NCBI RefSeq assembly: GCF_900172325.1
Contig: NZ_FWFR01000001.1
Span: 124,001 to 188,000, forward strand
DNA from: Oceanibacterium hippocampi
GTDB taxonomy: Bacteria; Pseudomonadota; Alphaproteobacteria; Sneathiellales; Sneathiellaceae
Reading direction: 5' to 3'
Length of the DNA stretch: 64,000 nt
Shown: piece by piece, positions 3,321 to 62,664 of the stretch
Numbering within the stretch: position 1 is the stretch's first letter
Layout: the number at the start of each line of letters is the position of its first letter
Position numbers and translations under genes: made by a program
Notes under the pieces: model-generated
Database searches by the model: none
What the model was told of the DNA's origin: nothing
What the model saw: the letters and a program-made list of their open reading frames with translations, nothing else

Positions 3321-6300
3321 ATGGCCACCGGGAAATCCGCAAAGGACGCTCGTTCGAGCAAATCCGCGGACCGACTGACCGGCGACGTGGCGGCGCTTGG
3401 CGATGCCCTTGACGCGGTCGGTGAAGGGGTCGTCCTGTTCGACGCCGACGACCGGATCACCTATGCCAATTCGCGTCTGCGTGAACTCCTGCCGGGTCTT
3501 GCCGACATGCTGGTGCCCGGCATCGGCATCGAGGACCTGCTGGCAGCGAAACTCGATCGCGGCCTGCTGTCGGCGACCATCGAGCCAGGCCCGGCGTGGC
3601 TCGAGCGGCAACTCGAGCGCCACCGCAATCCGCCCTCGGAGATCGAACTCGACCTGGCGGACGGACGGATTTTCCGTCTGACCCACCGCAAGTCGGCATC
3701 CGGCGGCAGCGTTTCGGTCTGGACCGACGTTACCGAGCGGCGGGCGGTGCGCAACGCGCTCGACGACAGCGAGCGGCGATACCGCGAATTTGCCAACATG
3801 AACCCCGCCGCCGTCATCGTTCAGGTCGACGGCAAGGTCGCCTTCGCCAACGAAGCTGCCTGCCGGATGTTCCGGGCCGACAGCCCCGCCGACTTGCTGG
3901 GCAGGGAAAGCCTCGACCTGGTAGCTCCCGAAAGCAGGAAACGCGTCCTCGAACGTCGCCGGCATGTCGAGATGACCGGCCAGGCGATCCCCTTCGCCGA
4001 AGGCCGCCACCGCCGCCTCGACGGCGCGATCTTCCCCAGCGAGATGGCCGCAAGGCCGGTCTTCTGGGAGGGAAAGCCAGGCACGAACAGCATCATCTTC
4101 GATGTTACCGAGCGCAAGGAAACCGAGAAGACGCTTCGCGAAAGCGAGCAGCGCTACCGCAGTCTCGTCGAGGGTTCCATTCAGGGCATCACGGTGACGA
4201 CCGAGACGGAGCGCCTGTTCGCCAACCAGGCCTTTGCCGACATGCTCGGTTATGACAATCCCGATGACGTCCTGGCGAATCTCGGCCCGTCCGATCATTT
4301 CCTGCCGGAAGAGCGCGACAAATTCATCGCCCGGCGCGTTGAGCGGATAAACTCCGGTGGCGTCGAGAAGCCTTTCGAAATCCGGATCGTGCGCAAGGAC
4401 GGCACGGTCGTAACCGCGCTCACCACTGGCAAGCAGATCGTCTGGTTCGGCAAGCGCGCCGCTCTTGCGACCTGGGTCGACATCACTGACAAGAAGCGGG
4501 CCGAGGAGGCGCTGCAGGAGCGCGAGCAGTATTTGCGTGAACTTATCGACGGTTCGATCCAGGCCGTATCGGTGTCCGACGGCGAGAAGCGCCTGTTCGT
4601 CAATCGCACCTACGCCCAACTGCTCGGCTATTCATCGCCGGAGGAGGTGCTGGAGAACGTCGGCATCTACGATGTCTTTCTACCGCACAAGGTCGAACGC
4701 ATCAAGGCCCGTCGCGACCGGCGCCTGCGGAAGGGCGGCCAGAGCGGACCGATCGAGCTCGACTATGTCCGCAAGGACGGCACGACGATCACCGCGCTGG
4801 TCGTGAGCAGCCGGATCTCGTGGTTCGGCAAGCCCGCCCTGCTCGGTACCGGCATCGACATCACCGAGCGCAAGCGGGCCGCGGAGGCGCTCAGGACGAG
4901 CGAACGCCGCTTCCGCGCGCTGATCGAGAATGCCCTCGACGTGATCGCCATTCTCGACCGGGACGGCGTGATCAAGTTTGCCAGCCCGTCGGTCGAGGTG
5001 GTGACCGGCTTCGACCCTGACGAGCTGATCGGCCAGAACGGACTGCTTTTCGTCCATCCGGACGACCGGGACGAGGCGCTCGAGCGGCTCATCAGACTTC
5101 ATTCCGTCCCGAATGCGACCGAGGCAATGTCATTCCGTTTTCAGCACAAGGCCGGCGGCTGGCGATACCTGGAGACGGTCGGGCGCAACCTTCTGGACGA
5201 CCCTTCCGTCGACGGCCTTGTGATCAACTCGCGTGACGCTACCGATCGCATCGAGGCCGAGGCAAGCCTGCGCCAGGCCCACAAGATGGAAGCAATCGGC
5301 CAGCTGACCGGCGGCGTTGCCCACGACTTCAACAATCTGCTCGCGGTGATCGCCGGCAACGCGGACCTGCTGCGCGAGACGCTCGACGCCCCGCCGGCAG
5401 AGCGCCTCCCGCTGGTCGACGCCATCACGCGGACGGCCGAGCGCGGCGCCGGCCTGACCCGAAGCCTGCTCGCCTTCTCCCGGAAGCAGGCGCTCCAGCC
5501 GAAGATCATCGACGTCAACGAACAACTGTCCGACCTGTTCGCCATCCTGCGCCGCACGCTCGGCGAGGATATCGAGATCAGGACCCGGACCGCCACCTCG
5601 CTCTGGCATTGCCTTGCCGATCGAGGCCAGCTCGAGAATGCCTTGCTCAATCTCACGCTGAACGCACGCGATGCGATGCCGGGCGGAGGCAAGCTGACCA
5701 TCGAGACGGCGAATGTCACGATCGACGAGAACCAGTCGGACCGGTCGAACGAACTCAAGGCCGGCGAGTACGTGATGCTCGCGATCAGCGACACCGGCAT
5801 CGGCATTCCGGCGGAGCTTCTGCCACGCGCCTTCGATCCGTTCTTCACCACCAAGCCCGCTGGCAAGGGCACCGGGCTCGGCCTCTCGATGGTCTTCGGC
5901 TTCGTCAAGCAATCGGGCGGCCATGTAACGATCTACAGCGAACCCAACGAGGGCACGACGGTCAAGATCTACCTGCCGCGCGCCCGCGGCGGCGGCGAGG
6001 CCGACCGGATCGGCCCGGCATCGGACGAACCGGCGACCCACGGCGAACTGATCCTGCTGGTCGAGGACGATCCGGATCTGCTGGCACTGGCCGCGACCCA
6101 GCTCGACAGTCTCGGCTACCGCGTGCTGAAAGCCGGCGACGGACCGACGGCGCTCGGGATCCTGGAGCGCGAGCCCCACATCGACCTGCTGCTGACCGAC
6201 GTCGTGCTGCCCGGCCAGCTGCGGGGGCCGGCGATCGCGGCGGCCGCGCGCGAGAGCCACCCGAAGATGGCGGTGCTCTACATGTCCGGCTATACCGAGG

Positions 6301-51668: not shown

Positions 51669-51995
51669 TCAGGCCGCGGCGCTGTCCCGGTTCTGGTAAG
51701 CCAGATTGCAGTGATGCACGCAATAGGGCTTTCCTGCCGCCGCCTCCTTGTTGCAGAAGCGGAAGTCCGGTTCACCGGGATGGCCGATCGGCCACTGACA
51801 GGGCCGCTTTGCCGACGGCTCCGCCCGAACCGACGCAGGCTTGGCCTCACCCTTGGCTGACAGGTTCAGCCGGTTGGCCTTTCCGATCACCGCGTTACGG
51901 GTCACGCCGCCCAGCGCTTCGGCGATATCCGCCGCTGTCTTGCCGTTTCCCCAAAGCTCTTTCAGCAGTTCGACGCGTTCCTCGGTCCAAGTCAT
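51669..51995 (-). CDS. gcrA: GcrA cell-cycle regulator (short form)
   Basis: Sigma-70-associated regulator that in Caulobacter activates promoters carrying methylated GANTC sites. The N-terminal HTH (MTWTEERVELLKELW, then GVTRNAVIGKANRLNL) and the C-terminal Cys/His motif (CQWPIGHPGEPDFRFC, then YCVHHCNLAYQ) are both intact. The protein is 108 aa, clearly shorter than the roughly 170 aa of Caulobacter GcrA, because the linker is only about 20 residues (AKGEAKPASVRAEPSAK). ATG 51995 begins MTWTEE; ATG 52007 is in frame. Confidence 0.9.
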   Translation of the reverse strand: MTWTEERVELLKELWGNGKTAADIAEALGGVTRNAVIGKANRLNLSAKGEAKPASVRAEPSAKRPCQWPIGHPGEPDFRFCNKEAAAGKPYCVHHCNLAYQNRDSAAA

Positions 51996-52182
51996 TCCCG
52001 TGCCCAAATCCCAGCTTGCAGTTCAATATCCAGTACGGCGGCGCCCATACCGCGCAAGATATACGCCGCACACCACGTTTTCACAGTTCGTCCCCGAAGC
52101 TTTGTATACTCCGCCAAACGGCGTAAAAGCTCAACCTGAAATCAAGCCCGCGACACCTTTGGAGAGGCCCCCGGGCCAGTGG

Positions 52183-57575: not shown

Positions 57576-58889
57576 TCACGGTTGGTTGATCTCTCCGTTG
57601 CCGAGGAAGGCGCCGACACCGAAATAGTCCTGTCCCCTGCTGATCTCGAAAGAGCCCGTGGGAATGAGTTCCTGCGTCGTCTCGATGAACTGGTTAAGGA
57701 AAACGCCGCTCGCCTCCCCGGTCATCGGCGGCGAGGAAATGAGCGCGGTCGAGGTGAAGGACGTTTTCGTCAAGTCGTCGCCGGCGACATCGAACGAGAA
57801 GTTCATGCCGTCGAAATCGGCGATATCGAGCGCACCGAGATTGGTGCCGAAATTGTAGGTCAGGTTGAACGTCGAGCCCGAGGTCTGCCGGAACGACTGG
57901 CCATCTATGACATATCCTTCGACCGCGCCGGCATAGGTCGCAACGCCGCCGAAATTGCCGAGATCGGTCGGGACGCCGACCTCAACGGCAAGATCGGAAA
58001 TCTCCTGCAGCAGGCCGTTGTAGGCCACGGCGAGATTGGGATCGAAGATGAAGTCGTCGTCCGGGCTGGAGATCGGTTCGAATGCCGTATTCTGGGCGGC
58101 ATTGTCGACTTCGCTCTCGTCATCGAGGACAAGCGTCTCCGTCGGGCCGGAGTCGTTGTCCTGGTTCGGATTCACGCCATTCGGGCCGATCGCCGAATTG
58201 AAAGCGGCAATCGCGTTGACGAGTTCCGGATCGACCACGAGCAGGCGGACATTCTCGAGCAGCGACGGCGATGCCTCGAGCCCGCCCTGCCAGTCGGCAA
58301 GGCGTTCCGGCGGCAGTCGACGGATCGCGGAAATCTGCCCGTCGACGATCTCGACGTAGAAGCCCGGCCGGGTAATCCGCTGGATGCTGTTGCCCACTCG
58401 GACGATCATCTCGCGGCCATAGAGGAAGGCGGCACGTACCGTCGCCCCCGCCTCGATGATGCCGACCCCGCCGCGAATACCGATGGTCGCGCTACCGACG
58501 TTGAGCGTGACCGGGTTCGCCTTGCTGATCCGGCCGCCCACGAAACGGAACAGGCCCTTGGTCGCCGAGAGCGCGAGATCGCCGGTCTTGGCCTCCGGGT
58601 CGTAGACGTAGCGATCCAGCAGGAGATCGGAATTCGGGCCGATGGTGAGCGATGAGCCGTCATTGAAGAGCAACTGGGTGCGTCCCAGTCCGCCGGTCTC
58701 CACCCGCTCCTCCTGGACCATCCGCGTGCCCGTCTCAAGCAGCCGGGGCGCCTTGGAAGGTGGCGTACCCTGGGCGTCGGGTTGCACGGCGGTGGAGACG
58801 CCGATCGATCCGTCCTCTCCGGCCGCCAGCGCACCGGTCGCAGAGGAAAGCAGCAGTAACGCGACAAGCGGCAGGGCGGTCATGCGCAT
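57576..58889 (-). CDS. Secreted FecR-domain protein with C-terminal barrel-like domain; candidate Slam cargo
   Basis: Exported protein of 437 aa. Residues 1-23 are a signal peptide ending TGALAA, with no lipobox cysteine. Residues about 60-180 form a FecR domain (TQLLFNDGSSLTIGPNSDLL, then KGLFRFVGGRIS and VGSATIGIRGG). Residues 200-310 are an acidic linker. Residues about 315-430 are Gly/aromatic-rich strands (VATYAGAVEGYVIDG, NLTYNFGTNLG, GEASGVFLNQF, GVGAFLGNG), the texture of an eight-stranded barrel as in TbpB-type or hemophilin-type cargo. GAGGAA precedes ATG 58889. The gene starts 10 bp after the TPR/barrel gene, so they form an operon. The FecR call is firm; the cargo call is inference. 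Confidence 0.85.
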   Translation of the reverse strand: MRMTALPLVALLLLSSATGALAAGEDGSIGVSTAVQPDAQGTPPSKAPRLLETGTRMVQEERVETGGLGRTQLLFNDGSSLTIGPNSDLLLDRYVYDPEAKTGDLALSATKGLFRFVGGRISKANPVTLNVGSATIGIRGGVGIIEAGATVRAAFLYGREMIVRVGNSIQRITRPGFYVEIVDGQISAIRRLPPERLADWQGGLEASPSLLENVRLLVVDPELVNAIAAFNSAIGPNGVNPNQDNDSGPTETLVLDDESEVDNAAQNTAFEPISSPDDDFIFDPNLAVAYNGLLQEISDLAVEVGVPTDLGNFGGVATYAGAVEGYVIDGQSFRQTSGSTFNLTYNFGTNLGALDIADFDGMNFSFDVAGDDLTKTSFTSTALISSPPMTGEASGVFLNQFIETTQELIPTGSFEISRGQDYFGVGAFLGNGEINQP

Positions 58890-58899
58890 CGGGTATTCC

Positions 58900-60240
58900 T
58901 CAAAAGCGATACATCGCGCCGAGCGTAAGCGCGATATTGCTGAATTCGTAATTGGGCAGCGACGAGTCGATATCGCGGACAGAAGCGCTGCCGATGGCGT
59001 TCCAGCTCTCGGCGAACGGGACCACGAGGGTTGCCGCCAGCCGGGTCTCGCGGTCCACCCGCTTGACGTTCGGGTCGACGACGGGGTCGGGTGAATCATA
59101 GTGGGTAACGAACAGCCCGCCCGAGACCATTACCGTCCAGGGCGCGGGCGTCAGGGCGAACTCGGGCCGGAAATTGTGGGTCGTGGAGAGCGTGAAGCCA
59201 TGCGTGCGGCTCTCCTCGTGATCGACGTCGGCACCCTCGAAGATGAACAGGGCCGAACCCGAAACCCGGGTATCCGGGCCGACCCGGTGATGGACGTCCA
59301 TCTTGGCCGTCCATTCCTCGCCGTCCTGGTCGCTGTTGCTGGTCCGGTTGGCGCCGTCCGAATACTGCCGGGAACGGACCATGCCGGTGAAGCCCATCTG
59401 GAAGAGCGGGGTCACCGTCGCGTCGAGGCCGACACCGCCGCCGAACATGGTGGAATATTCATGATCGTCGAGCCGGATGTGCCCCGCCGTCACGAACGGC
59501 CGGACCGAGAGACCCACGAGGTCGCCGGCGGGCAGCGGAATGCGCGGGCCGGTGTCGGCATCGAGCAGGATCAGGTTCAGCTGATCCTCCTGGTCCTGCA
59601 GCGTCCCGTAGGCGGTCAGGTTGCTTTCGAGCGTGACACCGTTCTGGGCCTCGAAATCGTAGACATGGCCGAGATTGAGAATGCCGAAGAGGTTGGTGTC
59701 GTCCTGTTCGCTGAATTCGTCATCCAGTCGCGCATTCAATCCGAAAAGCCGGACGTCTCGCGATTCCGGACCGGCATTCGCATTGGTCTGGTATCGCAGG
59801 CCGACAATGGCCGATCCGTCGAAACGGTTGCTCGCGAGGCGCTTGTCGATGGCCGCGAGATAGCCCTGGACGCGAGCCGCCAGCGGTCCCGGCAGGCGAT
59901 CGTCCTCGGCAATCTCGAGCAGGTATCCCTTCGCCGCGACGTAGGATCCGAGCCGGAAATAGAGCACGCCGAGTTCAAGGCGGACCTGGGGAAGATCCGG
60001 ATTGAGCAGCAGCATCCGCTCGAGCGTGCCGATCGCGCCTTCGAAATCGTCGACCGCGATCGCCGCCCGGGCATGGGCGAAAGCCTTCTCGAGGTCGGCG
60101 GGATCGGCCAGCATGGCCTCGAAACTGGATTGGTAGAGCGCCTCGGCGGCGGCATCCGGTTCGGCCGCCACCGACGACATGGCAGTACCGAGAAGTAATC
60201 CAGCAGCAAAAAGCACTCGGTAAAAATACGGAACGCGCAC
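58900..60240 (-). CDS. TPR plus outer-membrane beta-barrel protein (Slam/DUF560-like translocon)
   Basis: Outer-membrane protein of about 446 aa. Residues 1-26 are a signal peptide (VLFAAGLLLGTAMSSVAA). Residues about 30-135 hold TPR-like helices (ARAAIAVDDFEGAIGTLERM, then LPQVRLELGVLYFRLGSYVAAKGYLL). From about residue 148 an amphipathic strand-rich region begins with GLRYQTNANAGPES and runs to a C-terminal phenylalanine (TLGAMYRF), the outer-membrane signature. This is the layout of Slam/DUF560 proteins, whose barrel starts with a similar N-x-N motif. GTG 60240 with GGGGGG upstream is preferred; GTG 60276 is in frame. It heads an operon with the FecR protein. Confidence 0.8.
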   Translation of the reverse strand: MRVPYFYRVLFAAGLLLGTAMSSVAAEPDAAAEALYQSSFEAMLADPADLEKAFAHARAAIAVDDFEGAIGTLERMLLLNPDLPQVRLELGVLYFRLGSYVAAKGYLLEIAEDDRLPGPLAARVQGYLAAIDKRLASNRFDGSAIVGLRYQTNANAGPESRDVRLFGLNARLDDEFSEQDDTNLFGILNLGHVYDFEAQNGVTLESNLTAYGTLQDQEDQLNLILLDADTGPRIPLPAGDLVGLSVRPFVTAGHIRLDDHEYSTMFGGGVGLDATVTPLFQMGFTGMVRSRQYSDGANRTSNSDQDGEEWTAKMDVHHRVGPDTRVSGSALFIFEGADVDHEESRTHGFTLSTTHNFRPEFALTPAPWTVMVSGGLFVTHYDSPDPVVDPNVKRVDRETRLAATLVVPFAESWNAIGSASVRDIDSSLPNYEFSNIALTLGAMYRF

Positions 60241-60432: not shown

Positions 60433-62664
60433 GTGCCAGTGCGAGACGACCCAGGATCCACGGACAAGCCCATGCCGGCCGAACAGGACGTTGCAACCGG
60501 GCGAGGCGTCGAGCGTCGTCGATGGAAGCCGATCGGCATCAGGACGGTCCTGTTCAGCATCATGCTGGCCAGTGTCGTTTCAACCTGTCTCGGCATCGTC
60601 GGCTTCCTCGGCATTGTCCTCTACCAGGTCGGAGTCGCACGGGTCGACCAGATCCTCGAGGATCGCCAGCTCACGCAGAACAAGATCCTGCAGGCGCACC
60701 TTCATAACGCCACGACGGTTCTCCAGGGGATGTACCGCGGGATGGCAACCGAACCGGTCGTCATCGACTTGGAGGGGCACCCGTCCTGGTCCAGCCTGTT
60801 CGCCGACTGGTCAGGCACGTTGCGGAAAAGCGGCGTTGCCTTCATCAGGCTCGTTGACGGCGACGGCCGGGACCGCGGCGGGTTTGGCACCCGCCCTGTC
60901 CTGCCGCCGATACCGATCCTGCCGGACAGGGTCGGGATCGCGAACGGCGTCTGGTCGCCGGCCTTCGACCAATCGACGTCGGAGGTGTACGCGGTCTTCC
61001 GCGCCCGCATCACCGACCACGGCGTTGGCGGCAGCACCGATTCATCGCTGCTGACGATGACCATGGGTCTGCCGATCGACAAGTCCCTGCTCCGCGAGAT
61101 TGCCGACGCGCTTCGGGCGGAATCGGTGATGGTCGTCTTTGCCGGACAGGCCGGCGCGCGCATCGGGCCGGATATCCCCGACTTCCAGCAGGTGGAACGG
61201 ACGACGACTCTCGACTGGGGCGACCGCAGTCTCACGGCGCGGCTTTCCGTCAAGGGCATTCCCGGTCTTGCCGGGATCGACACCATCACCGTGATACCGG
61301 CCTTCGCCCTCAGGGTGCTGCTGGACAAGGGGGCGGTCGTGGTCCTGCTGCCCTTCATCTTCCTGTCGGGCTTCGGGATCGTCGGATTCCTGCTGTTGCG
61401 TCGCTTCGTCACACTTCCGGCCAAGCATCTGCGCGAATTCGCCCGGGCGATCGTCCGGAGCGGTTCCGGCGAAGTCTACAAGCCGGGCCCGGTCGTCGAG
61501 TTCAACGACGTCGGCCGGGCGCTTTCGGACACCGTTCGCGCCCTGGCGGAAAGCGAGCAGCGCTTTCGCGATTTCGCGGCGGCAGCGTCCGACTGGTTGT
61601 GGGAAGCCGACGAGGGCGGCCGTTTCACCTATGTTTCGCGCAACGCCCAGCCGATCTTCGGCACTGCGGCAAGGGGCGCACTCGGCCGCACGATGTTCGA
61701 GATCGCCGTCGACGATCAGGATACCGCCGAATGGCAGCGATACCGCGAGCGCCTGCGCCAGCGCCGGTCCTTTCGCGATCTCGTCTTCCAGTATGATTCC
61801 GGCGACGGACGGGTCCATCACATCCGGGCCAGCGGCCGACCGGTCCATGACCGGAACGGCAACTTCCGCGGCTATCGCGGCACCGGCTCGGATGTTACGG
61901 AGGAGACCGAAAGCAAGCGGCGCGCGGAAGCCGCCGAGAAGGCCCTGCGTGAATCCCGCGAGATCGAGACCCTGGGCGCGCTGACCGGCGGCGTCGCGCA
62001 CGACTACAACAACATGCTCGGGGTCATCATCGGCAACCTGGAACTGCTGCAGGACGAACGCCCCGACAACGAGGAGATTCAGGCCGCCATCGAACCGGCA
62101 CTCAGGGCCGCCAATCGCGCAACCGAGATGACCCAACGCCTGCTCGCCTTCGGTCGGCGGCAGAATCTGGCACCGCAGCGCATCGATATCGCGTCCGCCC
62201 TGCGCGAGGTCGAGCCGCTGCTGCGCCAGGGCCTCGGCGCTCGCCACGACCTGTCCATCGAGACCGAACCCGACCTTTGGCCCTGCCGGATCGACCCGAA
62301 CCAGTTCGAACACATGCTGGTCGGGCTGGTCGTGAACGGCCGCGATGCCATGCCGCTCGGCGGCACCCTGCTGATCCGGGCCGCGAACCGCGGATCGATG
62401 CGGCACGAGGCGGACGGGACGACGGAGCCCGACGAGGGCGATTTCGTCTGCCTCAGCATCGCTGACAGTGGTCGCGGCATTCCGCAGGACGAGATCGAGC
62501 GGATCTTCGAGCCCTATTTCACCACCAAGGGCCGATCCGGCCATCGCGGCCTGGGACTGTCCATGGTGCACGGCTTCGTCAAGCAGTCGGGCGGGCATCT
62601 GACCGTGGAGAGCGAGGTCGGGCGCGGCAGTCGCTTCGACATCTACCTGCCCCGGGCAGCCTGA
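60433..62664 (+). CDS. Membrane PAS histidine kinase
   Basis: Sensor kinase of 743 aa. Two membrane helices (about residues 37-67 and 300-325) enclose a periplasmic sensing domain of about 230 residues. A HAMP-like linker, a PAS domain (SDWLWEADEGGRFTYVS) and a HisKA domain with the phospho-histidine at 523 (TGGVAHDYNNML) follow, then a HATPase (NGRDAMPLGG, DSGRGIP, GLGLSMVHGFVKQSGGH). No receiver is fused and no response regulator lies nearby. GTG 60433 and ATG 60472 are both possible starts. It is divergent from the TPR/barrel-FecR operon and could sense envelope state for it (inference). Confidence 0.92.
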   Translation: MPVRDDPGSTDKPMPAEQDVATGRGVERRRWKPIGIRTVLFSIMLASVVSTCLGIVGFLGIVLYQVGVARVDQILEDRQLTQNKILQAHLHNATTVLQGMYRGMATEPVVIDLEGHPSWSSLFADWSGTLRKSGVAFIRLVDGDGRDRGGFGTRPVLPPIPILPDRVGIANGVWSPAFDQSTSEVYAVFRARITDHGVGGSTDSSLLTMTMGLPIDKSLLREIADALRAESVMVVFAGQAGARIGPDIPDFQQVERTTTLDWGDRSLTARLSVKGIPGLAGIDTITVIPAFALRVLLDKGAVVVLLPFIFLSGFGIVGFLLLRRFVTLPAKHLREFARAIVRSGSGEVYKPGPVVEFNDVGRALSDTVRALAESEQRFRDFAAAASDWLWEADEGGRFTYVSRNAQPIFGTAARGALGRTMFEIAVDDQDTAEWQRYRERLRQRRSFRDLVFQYDSGDGRVHHIRASGRPVHDRNGNFRGYRGTGSDVTEETESKRRAEAAEKALRESREIETLGALTGGVAHDYNNMLGVIIGNLELLQDERPDNEEIQAAIEPALRAANRATEMTQRLLAFGRRQNLAPQRIDIASALREVEPLLRQGLGARHDLSIETEPDLWPCRIDPNQFEHMLVGLVVNGRDAMPLGGTLLIRAANRGSMRHEADGTTEPDEGDFVCLSIADSGRGIPQDEIERIFEPYFTTKGRSGHRGLGLSMVHGFVKQSGGHLTVESEVGRGSRFDIYLPRAA

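Follow-up and report, generated by a model that had tools for sequence, protein, structure and literature searches.

The window, a 64,000-nucleotide stretch of the Oceanibacterium hippocampi genome, carries on its minus strand (57576-60240) a pair of genes, the first for a predicted outer-membrane translocon and the second for a FecR-domain protein (Table 1). Both open reading frames lie where an earlier model reading of the DNA (the sequence-only reading) had placed them, and its gene layout and tight operon were correct: 10 bases separate the translocon stop from the FecR ATG, and a ribosome-binding sequence overlaps the translocon stop codon. Thus, translation of both genes is probably coupled. 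A scan for promoters and terminators at the locus gave nothing above chance. A PAS histidine kinase gene with an apparent periplasmic sensor region (60433-62664, plus strand) is divergent from the translocon gene, with start codons about 190 bp apart, and is a possible regulator or signalling partner of the pair. Elsewhere in the window, the start of a minus-strand open reading frame (51669-52007) resembles, by eye, the cell-cycle regulator GcrA.

Table 1. Features of the translocon/FecR gene pair (window coordinates)
Feature	Position	Strand	Details and basis
Predicted outer-membrane translocon gene, T11SS (Slam/DUF560-like)	58900..60240	-	446 aa, GTG start
Translocon signal peptide, residues 1 to ~26, SPI type, SVAA/EPD	60163..60240	-	read from sequence; residues 1-25 low confidence in model
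Periplasmic TPR helices, residues 30-135	59836..60153	-	Pfam TPR matches; six helices in model
14-stranded beta-barrel, residues 138-446, C-terminal Phe	58903..59829	-	model; CymA/OmpG folds; SlipAM barrel homology
GAGGA ribosome-binding sequence, overlaps translocon TGA stop, 7 nt before FecR ATG	58897..58902	-	read from sequence
FecR-domain protein gene, proposed T11SS cargo	57576..58889	-	437 aa, ATG start
FecR-protein signal peptide, residues 1-22, SPI type, no lipobox	58824..58889	-	read from sequence
FecR/cell-surface-signalling domain, residues 58-207	58269..58718	-	PF04773; PupR fold match
Disordered linker, residues 208-313	57951..58268	-	low pLDDT; hydrophobic residues scarce
C-terminal eight-stranded TbpB/NHBA-type barrel, residues 314-434, presumed T11SS targeting domain	57588..57950	-	profile and model

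The structure of the 446-aa protein was predicted with 59 aligned sequences at a mean pLDDT of 93.5, and the model showed six TPR-type helices after the signal peptide followed by 14 main strands that end at the C-terminal Phe, a residue present at this position in all 81 members of the translocon family. The nearest solved folds were the 14-stranded CymA (Z 22.2 over 277 residues) and OmpG (Z 20.6); no Slam structure for a direct fold comparison was found in the PDB. The 14-stranded barrel expected by the sequence-only reading was therefore borne out by the model, together with SlipAM homology over the barrel alone. Pfam searches of the protein returned TPR_9 (1.8e-7) and TPR_19 (4.6e-7), and TPR_Slam (PF24575) matched weakly at an E-value of 0.0053, under its cut-off.

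The expected match of the 446-aa protein to DUF560/Slam models was absent in its direct form, as SlipAM/DUF560 (PF04575) gave no Pfam match at E-values up to 1; true SlipAM proteins do match the family profile. The direct SlipAM search of the O. hippocampi genome was empty, but so were 14 control genomes, which makes that search uninformative. Because the 446-aa protein has no direct Pfam match, membership in the Slam family rests on intermediate sequences. One relative found by the translocon-family profile passed the SlipAM cut-off (E 5.4e-7). Two genuine SlipAM proteins, which cover nearly the whole Pfam model (E 1.1e-29 and 7.1e-33), scored 5.9e-35 and 9.9e-35 against the translocon profile, and both were recovered by a profile of the barrel only (3.7e-23 and 1e-20), to which no decoy, reversed or shuffled, gave a match. 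Judged by these intermediates, which match over the barrel, the 446-aa protein is probably a distant relative within the Slam/DUF560 family. Upstream of one of the two SlipAM proteins (L239), an open reading frame ends in what by eye is a typical TbpB-type barrel sequence.

The second protein was described in the sequence-only reading as exported and carrying a FecR domain, and both points were upheld by the signal peptide and by a PF04773 match at residues 62-152 (E 7.5e-7; 29.9 bits against a gathering score of 24). The N-terminal domain fits the PupR cell-surface signalling domain (6ovk) with a Z of 15.8 over 136 residues, so that it shares the fold of the C-terminal signalling domain of the FecR/PupR anti-sigma proteins. 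Unlike those proteins, however, the 437-aa protein lacks the cytoplasmic anti-sigma N-terminus and the inner-membrane segment; a signal peptide for export and a short unstructured stretch precede the FecR domain, and a cargo-type barrel follows at the C-terminus. The model of the whole protein was of moderate confidence (mean pLDDT 63), with most of the two domains at 70-90. In the linker between them, pLDDT fell below 50 at residues 207-291 and 304-308, and an uncertain helix was drawn at residues 284-303. A hydrophobic-poor segment follows the FecR domain in all family members, and 61 of 64 have no lipobox-like motif ahead of that domain. The window protein contains no cysteine.

The structure prediction placed eight strands at residues 316-434, and a comparison of residues 306-435 with the PDB gave NHBA (Z 14.5, 22% identity), fHbp (13.5) and TbpB (12.8). 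A profile built from the C-termini of 24 FecR-barrel proteins was searched against all PDB chains, and NHBA came first (1.3e-5), then HpuA (0.0084) and fHbp. From general knowledge and the T11SS literature we take these three to be Slam-dependent or to belong to a class that holds Slam cargo. When the window protein was left out of the profile, its residues 314-431 were still recovered at an E-value of 3.4e-14 (with Z fixed at 5000) and 501 decoys gave no score, so the Gly/aromatic C-terminal region goes beyond chance. Matches to TbpB_B_D and FHBP_C appeared in some relatives, below the curated cut-offs. The structure prediction, the fold matches and the profile matches thus agreed with the sequence-only reading that this region is a TbpB-like barrel.

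The distribution of the pair was surveyed with the translocon alignment only, which was scanned against 84,980 species genomes and yielded 80 loci; the alignment held the closer members, since a version with distant members was too diverse for scanning. Pairing was counted at the 77 loci with at least 300 bases downstream. Although the query was blind to FecR, a FecR gene lay immediately downstream on the same strand in 58 of the 77, typically at a distance of 2-50 bp. All 19 genomes without a local FecR gene had a cargo-barrel match elsewhere, with a best E-value of at most 3e-12 in each, and every complete open reading frame examined in them carried a FecR domain; a few were cut by contig ends or stop codons. 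A FecR domain was found in the same frame in 64 of 69 barrel open reading frames, the exceptions being three cut frames and two apparently split genes. The survey of homologous loci that the sequence-only reading had called for therefore found the genes mostly together and, where apart, in the same genome. Among 385 genomes sampled evenly from the class, the translocon was present in 76, the cargo barrel in 37 and both in 32 (hypergeometric P ~1e-20, with kinship ignored), and the five barrel genomes that lacked a translocon had weak barrel matches only, at 4.5e-8 or worse.

The cargo family comes in two forms. The short form, to which the window protein is similar, has about 100 residues between the FecR domain and the barrel (19/64), and in most proteins of the longer form (45/64) the middle region, which is unlike the barrel, measures 450-690 residues. 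A second TbpB-like barrel in this middle region was looked for with HHalign and was not found. Ahead of the barrel, 24 of the 64 proteins, all of them long members (e.g. L059:8604-11447 and L148:7343-10201), carry the conserved motif C-x-C-x2-[LFMY]-x-W-G-x-W, which is possibly a disulfide or metal site and is missing in the window protein. Distant translocons (L233, L235-L238 and L241) adjoin FecR proteins of 400-540 aa that gave no match to the barrel profile, and the C-terminal domains of these proteins may represent a different cargo type. The O. hippocampi genome has a second locus (L059:8604-15642) with genes for a FecR protein (947 aa), a translocon (460 aa) and another FecR protein (919 aa). 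This locus is paralogous to the window pair, and both of its FecR proteins are of the long FecR-barrel type. In another genome, a translocon homologue (G050:C9:23241-24587, L062 region) has one in-frame TAA and is a pseudogene or an assembly error; a FecR-barrel gene lies elsewhere in that genome (L063).

A gene for a CHASE2-adenylate cyclase was found in 16 of the 80 near loci, among them L128, L088, L110, L119, L150, L140 and L139 (18 matches in all; two weak ones, to the later part only, were left out). It is often the next gene after FecR, 9-83 bp away, and several loci have the order translocon, FecR, CHASE2. In the distant translocon clade, 6 of 12 loci (L230-L234 and L241) had the same kind of gene, and Pfam confirmed both the CHASE2 and the cyclase domains in two of the neighbours. 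The O. hippocampi genome has four CHASE2 genes; with a few such genes per genome, we estimate about one chance locus in 80, with no correction for kinship. No other recurrent neighbour family was found beyond the synteny of close relatives. The recurrence suggests a three-gene signalling module with the translocon/FecR pair. At the window locus, a CHASE2 gene is absent and the PAS histidine kinase gene adjoins the pair instead. Elsewhere in the same genome (G000:C6:382797-384333), a CHASE2 gene has as its direct neighbour a FecR gene whose open frame spans 236 aa.

The pair shares with the Slam/type XI translocons of Neisseria, Haemophilus, Acinetobacter and Xenorhabdus the order of signal peptide, periplasmic TPRs and 14-stranded barrel, as well as a neighbouring gene whose cargo product ends in an eight-stranded barrel, and the translocon barrel is homologous at the profile level. 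It differs in the silence of the direct Pfam SlipAM search, in forming an alphaproteobacterial subfamily and in the FecR domain of the partner. The C-terminal barrel has the fold of, and detectable sequence similarity to, those of NHBA (GNA2132), fHbp, HpuA, TbpB and hemophilin/HphA, and the FecR protein is non-lipidated like hemophilin-type cargo. In place of the handle domain of TbpB-type cargo, the N-terminus carries a FecR domain, which a disordered linker joins to the barrel, and the signal peptides are mostly of the SPI type across the family.

Taken together, the two genes very probably code for a Slam-type export channel in the outer membrane and for the protein that it is predicted to export, and we consider it likely that they form a type XI (Slam-like) secretion unit of one translocon and one cargo. 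The translocon-cargo relationship proposed in the sequence-only reading is thus supported by the folds, the homologies and the conserved pairing, and none of its refuting tests that were run spoke against it. Sec would carry both proteins across the inner membrane. The 446-aa protein would form a 14-stranded barrel in the outer membrane, and its TPRs would lie on the periplasmic side. Recognition of the eight-stranded barrel at the C-terminus of the FecR protein would fall to the TPRs and barrel of the translocon, and at least this eight-stranded barrel would be moved through to the cell surface. The cargo would be a non-lipidated protein with a FecR/cell-surface-signalling-type domain at the N-terminal end of a long disordered tether, and this domain probably binds a ligand or another protein and reports it. 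The sequence-only reading had proposed a surface sensor or scavenger, and the CHASE2 cyclase neighbours favour sensing as the presumed role.

Where the FecR domain would end up bears on how such a unit might work. By analogy with other cargo, the domain may be exposed at the surface. FecR domains of known function are periplasmic. Together with the neighbouring CHASE2 genes, the lack of a lipid anchor and a linker that resembles a tether, this location speaks for a domain that is kept in the periplasm. The barrel would then be exported through the Slam-like channel, and the FecR domain would stay behind on its linker and report to an inner-membrane sensor, the CHASE2 cyclase in relatives and possibly the divergent PAS histidine kinase in the window. 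The translocon would double as the exporter and as the outer-membrane part of the receptor. This trans-envelope arrangement is a special case of the type XI unit and compatible with it, and we regard it as tentative and on balance unlikely. The recurrence of CHASE2 cyclase genes beside the pair in near and distant loci argues for it, as do the hydrophobic-poor linker found family-wide and the pairing of LysM-FecR proteins with CHASE2 kinases elsewhere (PMC5192318). As a lipid anchor is absent, the protein would need to be held in some other way. However, known T11SS cargo is thought to be exported whole, and the FecR domain could be exported like other N-terminal cargo domains. Furthermore, the window locus is among those that lack the cyclase gene, and the CHASE2-adjoining FecR gene in the same genome is a separate open reading frame and not a cargo gene.

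The eight-stranded domain could also be a transmembrane anchor of the OmpX/Ail type that holds a periplasmic FecR domain in the outer membrane, next to a separate 14-stranded channel. OmpX (Z 14.6) and Ail (Z 13.6) fit the cargo barrel too, so the fold alone cannot separate a soluble cargo barrel from a membrane anchor. The sequence decides for the cargo barrel, because the profile finds NHBA, HpuA and fHbp and its PDB list contains no outer-membrane barrel. An aromatic final residue was present in none of the 64 FecR-barrel proteins, as opposed to the terminal Phe of the translocons, and the GxFxGxK-like ending resembles that of TbpB and NHBA. We therefore consider the anchor very improbable. 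Least credible of all is that the pair combines a polysaccharide exporter laid out like BcsC, PelB and PgaA with an unrelated periplasmic FecR regulator: BcsC and PelBC do turn up in the fold search, but the barrels of that group have 16 strands as opposed to the 14 here, the best fold matches are 14-stranded, the sequence links lead to SlipAM, no polysaccharide synthesis gene is among the open reading frames adjoining the pair, and the translocon co-occurs strongly with the TbpB-type barrel.

The word FecR is absent from the main text of the two main type XI surveys, of 2021 (PMC8406197) and 2025 (PMC12282271), in line with the expectation of the sequence-only reading that a cargo with a FecR domain would be unusual. 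In a literature search that covered the article text of mostly open-access papers, nothing was found that links FecR to type XI secretion, DUF560 or Slam. The FecR signalling domain makes this protein unlike any T11SS cargo that we found described. FecR-CHASE2 neighbourhoods without a translocon were already known: the operon for a LysM-FecR protein and a CHASE2 histidine kinase in Burkholderia contaminans (PMC5192318) has in common with part of the family an exported FecR protein beside a CHASE2 sensor, but its sensor is a kinase and not a cyclase, its FecR protein carries LysM and not the barrel, and no Slam-like translocon is mentioned. In Sinorhizobium meliloti, CHASE2 cyclases and the outer-membrane protein NsrA control infection, and among the targets studied for the same cyclic-AMP regulator is the FecR protein SMc02177 (PMC5498481, PMC7529298). 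The gene for MtxA (PMC4439547) adjoins a CHASE2 cyclase gene; FecR is unmentioned there, and no link between MtxA and the translocon/FecR family was found.

The verified type XI translocons number only seven, all in the animal-associated cluster 1, and the marine cluster 3 rarely has recognisable cargo (PMC12282271). The translocon/FecR pair recurs across alphaproteobacteria, often adjoining the gene for a cyclic-AMP-producing membrane sensor. The family is a large environmental set, with many genomes of Reyranella, Rhodospirillales and Hyphomicrobiales, whose sequences allow each cargo to be matched to its translocon, and it adds a cargo type with the fold of a signalling domain. The recurring CHASE2 cyclase gene provides a testable link between the export of outer-membrane proteins and cyclic-AMP signalling. 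If the trans-envelope receptor were true, type XI secretion would be a part of cyclic-AMP surface sensing in alphaproteobacteria.
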